From an uncultured Verrucomicrobiota bacterium (GTDB lineage Bacteria > Verrucomicrobiota > Verrucomicrobiia > Limisphaerales > UBA9464), in assembly GCA_903939515.1 (NCBI GenBank), contig CAJAHH010000058.1:1-32786 (forward strand): a stretch of 32,786 nucleotides of DNA, in the 5' to 3' direction. A program made the translations under genes and the position numbers. Every line of letters starts with the position of its first letter. Positions within the stretch are counted from its first letter, which is position 1. Of this stretch, positions 21,277-23,791 are shown one piece after another. The notes beneath the pieces were generated by a model. It was not told the origin of the DNA. It did not search any database and was given only the letters and a program-made list of their open reading frames with translations.

Positions 21277-22155
21277 CTACAGGCTGACTACCTGCATCCA
21301 GCCTTCCGCCCCAAAACGTGCTTCAAAGGGCGCAACCGCCGCCTGGGCGATTACCACGTCTGGGAAGAGCGCAAACGTGGTGGAACCACTCCCAGACATC
21401 AGCGCCGCCCAAGCCCCGTGCTCGCGAAAGAAACTCTGGTACAACTCCAGAACGGGATACTTGTGTAAGGCCGGAGCCTCCAGAGAGTTATAGAAGTGCT
21501 TCCCTGCTTCGGTGAGATCGCCCGATCTCAGGGCTCGCTCCAAGTCTTCAACACGACCCGGTCTGCCTTTCAGCGCTTCTGGATACTGAGCCAGCTCTCG
21601 ATAGGCCCAGGCCGTGGAGATACCAAAGCCCGGATGATACAAAATCATACCTCGACCACGGAGCGACTCAAACGAGGCCATGGGCTCGACTTGTTCTCCG
21701 CGGCCGGTGGCTCGGGCCGGTTGGTCCTGGAGGAAGAAGTTCACATCCGAACCGAGAGTGGCTGCTAATCGATCCAGCCGGTCGTTTCCCAGCGGTCGGC
21801 CCAACAAATCGTTCATCCCGACGAGTGTTTGGGCGGCATTAGAGCTACCGCCGCCCAACCCAGCAGCCAAGGGGATGCGTTTGGCCAAGTGGATCCGAAC
21901 CCCCCGCCCTGTCCATTGGGCTTCGGCCAAAAACTGCTCTGCAGCCCTCACCACGAGGTTACTACGATCAGTCGGCAATTCCGGATGATCGCAGGTGAAC
22001 TGGATTCCCGAATTCGAGTCCGTTTCAAAGGTCAACTCATCGCAAAGCGGCACCGGATGAAACAGGGTTTCTAGGTCATGAAACCCGTCCGGCCGCCGGC
22101 CCAGAATATTGAGCAGCAAGTTGACCTTGCAGGGAGAGGATCGAATCAGCGGCAT
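21277..22155 (-). CDS. ispE: 4-diphosphocytidyl-2-C-methyl-D-erythritol kinase
   Basis: IspE phosphorylates CDP-methylerythritol in the MEP pathway for isoprenoid precursors, and thus for undecaprenyl lipid carriers. The 292-residue GHMP kinase has the family start RSSPCKVNLLLNILGRRPDGFH (5-26), including K10, the glycine-rich ATP loop PLAAGLGGGSSNA (95-107), and D137 in LGSDVNFF. The C-terminal MSGSGSTTFALF is the third GHMP motif. The ATG at 22155 immediately follows the six-T tail of a strong terminator-like hairpin. An in-frame TTG at 22245 would read through the hairpin and give 30 extra residues, but the family usually begins near the chosen ATG. How this gene is transcribed is therefore an open question. 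Confidence 0.94.
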   Translation of the reverse strand: MPLIRSSPCKVNLLLNILGRRPDGFHDLETLFHPVPLCDELTFETDSNSGIQFTCDHPELPTDRSNLVVRAAEQFLAEAQWTGRGVRIHLAKRIPLAAGLGGGSSNAAQTLVGMNDLLGRPLGNDRLDRLAATLGSDVNFFLQDQPARATGRGEQVEPMASFESLRGRGMILYHPGFGISTAWAYRELAQYPEALKGRPGRVEDLERALRSGDLTEAGKHFYNSLEAPALHKYPVLELYQSFFREHGAWAALMSGSGSTTFALFPDVVIAQAAVAPFEARFGAEGWMQVVSL

Positions 22156-22188
22156 AAAAAAGCGCTCCCGCAGAATCTGCAGGAGCGC
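22156..22188 (-). terminator. Strong terminator-like hairpin abutting the ispE start
   Basis: A 12-base stem (22188-22177 with 22173-22162, eleven pairs and one mismatch) with a three-base loop is followed on the minus strand by six Ts and then directly by ATG. It lies 50 bases after the stop of the lipoprotein gene and fits a Rho-independent terminator for it. Confidence 0.8.
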
Positions 22189-22237
22189 GGAAGGAAGTTG
22201 GAAATGGGGCGACCCGTTAACGGCTAACCCCAGATCA

Positions 22238-22663
22238 TCAGTCAATGACGCGGAAGCGGCTGCCCGGGATCACAGGAGCCACATCGGACGCCTCGAATCC
22301 GAGGGAACTGTCAGTGGACGTCACGGTGGACTTACCTAGAGCTCCCGGCTTGTAGCTATCCGGATACACCTTGTAGTCCGGCTTGATGTACGGCTCGCTG
22401 GGGATCGGGAAACTTAAGACCTCCACGGCACCCACGACCGTGCGACCAATGGTGCGATTGACACCGCGGACCACGCCCACAGTGCCGCCATGAGTGCCAC
22501 CGAAGAGAGCACCCTGCTCGTAGCTGCGCTGGAGTTCACCGAGGCGAAAAGGCTCCGACAAATTGTCGAGGCCACGACCGAGTTTCTGCTCGGCGCTGGT
22601 GCATCCGACGAGCACCGCGGCCACGGTCACAAGGAGACTCACCGACTTGAGAAGGGAACGCAT
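22238..22663 (-). CDS. Exosortase system-associated lipoprotein, TIGR04073-like
   Basis: This 141-residue protein has a lipoprotein signal peptide (LLVTVAAVLVGC, lipobox cysteine C21). The region after it (KLGRGLDNLSEPFRLGEL, about 27-44) and the glycine-rich GTHGGTVGVVRGVNRTIGR (about 57-75) recall TIGR04073 proteins, which occur in genomes with an exosortase/PEP-CTERM-type sorting system. No exosortase or PEP-CTERM protein is visible here. It ends at a strong terminator. The family assignment is from memory of the motif and should be checked. Confidence 0.72.
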   Translation of the reverse strand: MRSLLKSVSLLVTVAAVLVGCTSAEQKLGRGLDNLSEPFRLGELQRSYEQGALFGGTHGGTVGVVRGVNRTIGRTVVGAVEVLSFPIPSEPYIKPDYKVYPDSYKPGALGKSTVTSTDSSLGFEASDVAPVIPGSRFRVID

Positions 22664-22744
22664 AGTGTTGGAAAATATGGTTGGAGGTTATAGGCGGAAC
22701 AGGTGGGTGCAAGCGCGGACTTCAATCGATGGAAAATGAATTGA

Positions 22745-23791
22745 TCACGCACGGTCCTCAGGCGACGCGATCGCCGCCTTAGCCGCCTTCCGACCCCACC
22801 ACCAGGCAATCACCAAGCTGATCTCATAGAGCAGATGGAGCGGCAGGAACAGCAGGAGCATGTTCAAAGGGTTGCCATCGGGCGTGATGAAGGCCGCGAT
22901 CACCAACCCGGCCACCACCCAATAGGAGCGGAACTTGGAGAGCTTGGCAGCGTCAAGGATGCCGATCTTGACCAACGTCAACAGGACCAATGGCAACTGG
23001 AAGGCGATGCCCATTCCCAGCATGAACCAACAGACAAAACTAATGTACTCATCGGCTTTCCATTCATCGGCGGCAAAGCCCAGCCAATTGGAGAAACTCA
23101 CTGTGGTGCTGAGGCAAATCACCAGCAAAACGAAGTAACAGAAGGCCACTCCGAGTAGAAAGAGAAAGGTTGCCCACCCGCTCACCTTGTACACGAAGGA
23201 CTTCTCGTGATGGTGCAGCGCCGGCAGGATGAACTGGGCGATGAAGAATAAGACAAAGGGAATCGAAACGGTGATACCGCCAAACATGGCGATCTGCATC
23301 ACCACGCTGAACGCAGTCACCGGCCCCAGCGTCTTGAGTTGCACATCGAACGAACGCGTCGCGCTGGCTGGAGGATTGGTTTCCTCCTGAACAGTCATGA
23401 CAAAATTTGTGCCGATCTGCCTCGGCGACAACCGGAAGACCGTGTCTCGGTTGGTAGCCACCCCGGGGATGCCGCTATCTTGCGGTGTCATGCGGGTGAG
23501 CACATTAGTTCCGAGCATGTACACCACTCGACCCTCCGTGGAGTGCCGCATGCCCTCGGCCACCATGAGGGGCCACTTAAGAAACTGGATCACCACATTG
23601 CTGCCGCTCAGACAGAGGATGAATCCCAGAAATACCGCTACCGCACACTTGATGAGTGTCCAACGCAGGTCCTCGAGGTGCTCCAAGAAGGTCTTCACCG
23701 GCCCACCACCCTCCGACTCCGAGTCAGAATCCAACGAATCGGAACTTGGGGGCAGCGAGGGGGTCAGGGAGTAATCAGGATCGTCAGCCAT
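22745..23791 (-). CDS. tatC: Sec-independent translocase TatC, with extended first periplasmic loop
   Basis: TatC is the receptor for twin-arginine signal peptides in the inner membrane. The 348-residue protein is longer than the usual roughly 250. An acidic Ser/Asp-rich N-terminus (1-30) precedes the family FLEHLEDLRWTLIK motif. The six-helix core is recognisable, with ILPALHHHEKSF (188-199, E196 at the position of the functionally important E. coli glutamate) and FITPDGNPLNMLLLFLPLHLLYE (301-323). Between helices 1 and 2 there is an extra periplasmic segment of about 60 residues (roughly 85-150). It lies upstream of the lipoprotein gene and downstream of tatA, a normal tatA-tatC order. Confidence 0.95.
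   Translation of the reverse strand: MADDPDYSLTPSLPPSSDSLDSDSESEGGGPVKTFLEHLEDLRWTLIKCAVAVFLGFILCLSGSNVVIQFLKWPLMVAEGMRHSTEGRVVYMLGTNVLTRMTPQDSGIPGVATNRDTVFRLSPRQIGTNFVMTVQEETNPPASATRSFDVQLKTLGPVTAFSVVMQIAMFGGITVSIPFVLFFIAQFILPALHHHEKSFVYKVSGWATFLFLLGVAFCYFVLLVICLSTTVSFSNWLGFAADEWKADEYISFVCWFMLGMGIAFQLPLVLLTLVKIGILDAAKLSKFRSYWVVAGLVIAAFITPDGNPLNMLLLFLPLHLLYEISLVIAWWWGRKAAKAAIASPEDRA

Follow-up and report, generated by a model that had tools for sequence, protein, structure and literature searches.

Among the closest described arrangements is the rpsU-dnaG-rpoD operon of Escherichia coli, where a terminator between rpsU and dnaG reduces the expression of dnaG. As proposed below for ispE in an uncultured member of the Limisphaerales, that terminator separates a small gene with high expression from an essential gene required at a low dose, which is fed by read-through. 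However, the rpsU-dnaG spacer is 110 nt long and its likely stem, located by eye, ends ~34 nt before dnaG, whereas in the locus studied here the U-tract runs directly into the start codon. Our scan found no T-tailed hairpin in the E. coli spacer at its cut-off, and the operon was therefore dropped as a benchmark for the scan; the comparison is one made by eye.

Operon-internal termination is also described for Methanococcus maripaludis, where internal sites (ioTTS) lower the expression of the downstream gene, and mutation of such sites raised it (PMC10450193). This is an archaeal case with a different termination machinery that was demonstrated by experiment, whereas ours is inferred from sequence. 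In Mycobacterium tuberculosis, ispE itself lies downstream of an intrinsic terminator, the read-through of which feeds the rpfB-ksgA-ispE operon (PMC6009663). However, the M. tuberculosis terminator sits in the rpfB 5' leader, which can adopt an alternative fold, and a weak start site belonging to ispE lies 37 bp upstream of it, whereas none was recognized at the ispE examined here. Our literature search found no paper on TIGR04073, on transcript termination in Limisphaerales, or on leaderless start sites in Verrucomicrobia.

The window, i.e., the whole stretch of 32,786 nucleotides that was analyzed (contig CAJAHH010000058.1), carries on its minus strand tatC (22745–23791; PF00902, E 9e-52), followed by a lipoprotein-like gene of 141 amino acids (22238–22663) and by ispE, encoding 4-diphosphocytidyl-2-C-methyl-D-erythritol kinase of 292 amino acids (21277–22155; TIGR00154, 196.5 bits vs. 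a cut-off of 138.7). The lipoprotein-like gene belongs to the exosortase system-associated family TIGR04073 (60.2 bits vs. a cut-off of 50), and the label "lipoprotein" is based on its N-terminal sequence as read by eye. The gap of 82 nt between this gene and ispE contains a hairpin and a run of six T. On the minus strand, positions 22188–22162 read GCGCTCCTGCAG-ATT-CTGCGGGAGCGC, forming 12 pairs, including one G-U, around a 3-nt loop; the stem begins 49 nt behind the lipoprotein stop codon, and it is followed by TTTTTT (22161–22156) and immediately by the ispE ATG (22155–22153). This succession of a strong stem, a three-base loop, a T-tract and a start codon had been pointed out in the initial annotation, and both the sequence and the fold confirm it. 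Folded alone, the hairpin has a free energy of −24.1 kcal/mol (z −5.6), and none of 200 shuffles was equally stable. The two hallmarks of an intrinsic terminator are thus present: a GC-rich stem of 12 bp with a loop of 3 nt, with its pairing kept among relatives, and a U-rich tract right after the stem, T6 in the window and T-rich in the relatives, among which L013 has a tail weak in T (TTGGTTCA). In a window-wide terminator scan this hairpin ranks first (12 pairs, 9 of them GC). The scan returned 27 terminator-like sites vs. 19.4 (sd 3.8) in shuffled sequences, and many of the weaker sites are due to chance. The hairpin at the ispE junction is beyond chance, since it is found at the same junction in relatives and shows compensatory pair changes.

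We surveyed 59 genomes, including 19 from the genus of the window (its own genome among them). Genes for ispE were present in 57 of these genomes and 56 loci were readable; genome G039, in which ispE is split over two contigs, was left out. A TIGR04073 gene lies upstream of ispE in 54 of the 56 loci. When the hairpin was compared among these orthologous loci, as the initial annotation had suggested, a T-tailed hairpin was present in the gap of all 54 (52 by the scan; L022 and L056 by eye). The ispE start codon lies 6–13 nt behind the stem in 46 of 52 loci, and the six exceptions have distances of 23–205 nt. This tight spacing is found in all 19 loci of the window's own genus and in 16 of the 23 represented families, as counted by hand from the tables, like all family counts.

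The ATG at 22155–22153 is very likely the true start of ispE, since it places the motif SPCKVNL at residues 7–13, the usual distance from the N-terminus in solved IspE proteins. The ispE frame of the window is open upstream through the hairpin as far as a TTG at 22245, and the hairpin might accordingly be part of the ispE coding sequence, with the start further upstream, or the start might be misassigned. We find this scarcely credible, as the ATG yields a normal IspE N-terminal length, which also speaks against a start located elsewhere, a possibility raised in the initial annotation. In addition, the distances from stem end to start fall into all three frames (25, 15, and 12 of the 52 loci), and the hairpin is therefore not a conserved coding extension.

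The stem is maintained by paired changes. In alignment A1, standard pairs fill 94.7% of 489 cells and 7 of the 10 pairs have changed on both sides, vs. 4.4 in shuffles; the observed values were reached by none of 500 shuffles, and sliding the registers by 1–3 columns reduced the pairing to 29–50%. The tail positions T30–T33 are nearly invariant, and the stem sequence differs even within the window's own genus while its pairing is kept. Terminators at other genes of the same group are similar in kind. For example, T-tailed hairpins follow the pyruvate phosphate dikinase gene in 27 of 30 loci and the peroxiredoxin gene in 25 of 30, each control being read in the 30 closest of the 59 genomes and thus in fewer families. 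Like the hairpin at the ispE junction, these controls combine a fixed position with changing stems, and therefore a conserved terminator alone is not special to this junction. We also considered exceptional conservation of the ispE hairpin: its arms share a mean of 7.6 nt (33 loci outside the genus) vs. 6.1 (17 loci) and 4.9 (11 loci) for the controls, a difference that is if anything understated since the control loci come from closer relatives, and we read it as stronger conservation of the same kind. The mean terminator score was 31.9 in the window's own genus and 22.9 elsewhere, vs. 29.5 and 10.5 for the controls. A weakened terminator tuned to leak was likewise discarded as an explanation, since the mean U-tract score is above that of both controls, the controls being taken at a hairpin score of at least 29 and the ispE loci at 22 or higher.

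The exact palindrome GCGCCAACN2-10GTTGGCGC is present in 23 of the 59 surveyed relatives, although none of the 19 own-genus genomes, the window's among them, has it. Across the order it was found in 78 of 196 genomes, 72 of which have a single copy. A reversed control pattern matched one of the 59 and 12 of the 196 genomes. Among 31 palindrome sites inspected, 27 lie in loci with both the lipoprotein gene and ispE, unlike the remaining 4. Given the single copies, the rarity of the reversed control and the 27 of 31 sites at the junction, we rejected a genome-wide repeat or a generic terminator word. On the basis of the 31 inspected sites, the palindrome is nearly specific to the ispE junction, which is more than a simple terminator requires; a possible explanation is that a constrained, paired stem changes only slowly. 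Copies away from ispE were seen at L189, L190, L193, and L196.

The hairpin looks from the sequences as if it belongs to the lipoprotein gene, since both are absent together in the two readable ispE loci without TIGR04073 (L041 and L054, from genomes G041 and G058): in these loci the end of tatC is closely followed by ispE, in front of which no hairpin was found. Of the loci with a long gap to ispE, L032, L043, L045, and L056 retain the hairpin close to the lipoprotein stop codon, whereas L042 and L048 do not. Against this model, a distance of 62–131 nt separates that stop codon from the hairpin in L012, L013, L029, L042, and L048, and in the first three of these the hairpin is nearer to ispE than to the stop.

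Loci from named collections, many of which repeat surveyed genomes, were left out of the counts. Nine named loci that look additional were read (L116, L117, L120, L123–L127, and L129), all with the lipoprotein gene. A T-tailed hairpin is present in L116, L117, L120, L123 (weak, 24.5), and L129, with some 50–60 nt between the stem and the ispE start in L116, L117, and L120. At the cut-off of the scan, no T-tailed hairpin was found in L124–L127, which have TIGR04073 upstream, and these loci count against the model; by eye, they have a long imperfect hairpin with a T-poor tail before ispE. Eight more distant loci (L130–L136 and L143, mostly Verrucomicrobia by title) lack both a recognizable lipoprotein gene and a hairpin at ispE. 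In other lineages, 30 TIGR04073 loci were read, none of them with ispE within the stretch read, and by eye no genome outside the order has TIGR04073 and ispE within 1 kb (74 TIGR04073 genomes, of which three have no listed ispE). In 15 of 17 loci of genus g113, which belongs to another order and is presumably Akkermansia, a T-tailed hairpin follows the TIGR04073 gene with ispE not adjacent. The 13 TIGR04073 loci of the remaining lineages yielded one weak hairpin only (score 22), which counts against the model.

Upstream of the lipoprotein gene lies a promoter-like element, TTGCAC-N16-TAACCT (22685–22712, minus strand), which ends 21 nt before the ATG. In 45 of 51 genomes, the region ahead of the lipoprotein gene contains a TTTACA-like or TTGCAC-like hexamer followed by N16 and TANNNT, vs. 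a shuffle expectation of 0.16 that is too favorable since the pattern was picked after viewing these upstream regions; the count omits L023, where the contig ends too close, and eight loci of genomes already counted. The six misses look by eye like variants, five with hexamers 17–18 nt apart and one with a variant first hexamer. The pattern TTTACA-N16-TANNNT was seen ahead of TIGR04073 genes of relatives (e.g., L072, L089, and L096) and could seed a promoter model for the order. A general promoter scan of the window missed the TTGCAC-N16-TAACCT copy.

Given the conserved promoter-like element and the terminator hairpin, the lipoprotein gene looks like a complete transcription unit of promoter-like element, open reading frame and terminator. 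Alternatively, the hairpin might act mainly as a 3' stabilizer or processing site within a longer tatC-lipoprotein-ispE message, with segments of unequal stability and little termination. The three genes are co-directional, the stem is stable, and an identical anatomy would fit both roles. However, a pure stabilizer would not need the conserved T-rich tail at the base of the stem (T30–T33), and the lipoprotein gene has a promoter-like element of its own; we consider little termination at this hairpin improbable.

The ispE gene is co-directional with the lipoprotein gene. Unlike for the latter, no sigma70-like promoter was recognized before ispE with a matrix and a consensus built from the lipoprotein upstream regions, which favor the lipoprotein gene and could miss other kinds of promoters. 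The best matrix score in the 150 nt before ispE had a median of 0.0, vs. 16.2 for the lipoprotein gene and 1.4 for shuffles. Three of 54 ispE upstream regions score above the lipoprotein minimum of 7.2 (L003, 8.2; L042, 7.8; L053, 7.4), and none of the 54 reaches the lipoprotein median minus 4. A consensus similar to that of the lipoprotein gene was found in the last 100 nt before ispE in none of the 46 tight loci, with 1.2 expected. The idea that ispE gains a promoter of its own where the gap is long was also rejected, the consensus being present in none of nine such loci, of which L042 scores 7.8 by the matrix.

As the initial annotation had stated, the start abutting the U-tract leaves no room for a 5' leader of ispE's own, and it had therefore considered a leaderless ispE or a promoter inside the stem. 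In such an arrangement the ispE promoter would overlap the hairpin, the mRNA would be leaderless or nearly so, and the terminator would merely insulate two units. A start 6–13 nt behind the stem is what a leaderless gene would need, and these genomes barely use Shine-Dalgarno (SD) sequences; some Verrucomicrobia, including Akkermansia muciniphila, are named among SD-scarce organisms (PMC10783764). However, if transcription began at the ATG, its −10 element would have to lie within the GC-rich 3' arm. A −10 motif is expected about 7–12 nt before the start of a leaderless gene, and only 1 of 52 loci has TANNNT within the 20 nt that precede ispE. With the −10 constrained to end at −18 to −3 of ispE, the best score had a median of −2.2 and a maximum of 7.0, below the minimum of the lipoprotein gene (7.2; median 16.2), from which the matrix was built. 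In samples from two genomes, TANNNT also showed no clear enrichment directly ahead of ATGs, the −20 to −11 bin being the highest in one of them (14 of 66 hits). With no good promoter match, we regard a separate ispE promoter as unlikely, and the suggestion of a leaderless start or of a promoter in the stem is not borne out.

The initial annotation had also treated the lack of an SD sequence as a problem for ispE. Its absence is of little consequence, as SD-like 4-mers barely exceed the control level here: they were found before 10 of 100 ATG-started genes in a sample of the window's own genome vs. 6 in the control window, and before 16 of 106 vs. 11 in one relative. An SD-like 4-mer falls within the 3' arm of the stem in 12 of the 19 own-genus loci, and in 1 of 37 loci outside the genus one lies in the corresponding stretch.

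Taken together, we consider it probable that the hairpin and U-tract form an intrinsic (Rho-independent) terminator of the lipoprotein gene and that ispE is transcribed by read-through. The hairpin, the U-tract, their order-wide recurrence and covariation, the linkage to the lipoprotein gene, the promoter-like element of that gene and the lack of a recognizable promoter at ispE are established from the sequence; from the start right behind the U-tract and this lack we infer that ispE RNA would arise from polymerases that pass the hairpin, at which transcription would otherwise terminate. RNA polymerase would start at the lipoprotein promoter-like element and mostly halt at the U-tract, while a read-through fraction, postulated by elimination, would carry on into ispE. 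A steady, presumably constitutive leak would set a low dose of IspE relative to the lipoprotein, and translation would start without an SD at the AUG beside the hairpin.

Two points count against the proposed read-through. With a strong predicted terminator, ispE RNA would be scarce unless transcription of the lipoprotein gene is high, and on the read-through RNA a hairpin of about −20 kcal/mol only ~7 nt ahead of the AUG should make it harder for ribosomes to load. It is also conceivable, with a rather low probability, that the order feeds ispE only by leak through a strong terminator and that cleavage at the base of the hairpin makes the read-through RNA translatable by generating an mRNA starting with U6-AUG or AUG, which would be leaderless by processing, with the dose of IspE tied to the output of an envelope lipoprotein gene.

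The initial annotation had combined termination of the upstream lipoprotein transcript with read-through that might be regulated, and had raised attenuation tied to isoprenoid supply. The hairpin does look like a terminator and read-through is probable by elimination; it is the regulated part that finds no support. A regulated attenuator would link ispE to isoprenoid or envelope status via an antiterminator or a binding protein. The unusual abutment of terminator and start codon would suit such a device, as would the exact palindrome at the junction in 27 of the 31 inspected loci. In the window and nine close relatives, moreover, 47–49 nt separate the lipoprotein stop from the stem, and in this space a second, weaker hairpin is predicted (22205–22232, minus strand), in the alignment of which 2 of 8 pairs show both-side changes. 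A riboswitch or leader attenuator has a sensor or a competing helix upstream. None was found, although in the window some space for one is left by the 49 nt with their second hairpin: the window's fold contains no antiterminator helix that competes with the terminator, the second hairpin lying clear of it without overlap. In 34 of 52 loci, the stop-to-stem distance is 13–25 nt, into which a sensor or an antiterminator would hardly fit. A search of Rfam at gathering scores gave no match for the window and five relatives' loci, and a known RNA family was set aside on this basis. A sensor is disfavored by the short space before the stem, by stems that vary in sequence within the window's own genus with pairing kept, by the lack of an Rfam match in these six sources, and by the loss of the hairpin together with the lipoprotein gene in two loci; nor does the terminator score as weak. 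Isoprenoid-coupled regulation of ispE thus has no positive support in the sequences, and we regard an attenuator as very unlikely.

If read-through feeds ispE, the junction would be a conserved natural case in which leak through a terminator sets the dosage of an enzyme that is probably essential. It would also provide a test of how bacteria with scarcely any use of SD sequences start translation at an AUG beside a stable hairpin. More generally, a terminator between two genes is no proof of two independent units.

The unusual part of the junction is the start codon abutting the terminator, about as close to it as possible. In 735 kb of two genomes, we found 59 strong hairpins, 22 of them behind a gene stop; 10 of the 22 have a co-directional next gene, and 2 of these 10 genes start within 20 nt, one being the ispE of the window. 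These counts are rough, as genes were called by longest open reading frame, which missed the ispE of the second genome, G130, because the opposite strand was chosen. Abutting terminators may recur in the window's genome: on another of its contigs (C9, L256:5217–5255), a terminator-like stem lies behind a pilin-like gene and 7 nt before the ATG of an EamA-type-transporter-like gene, both names being assigned by eye.
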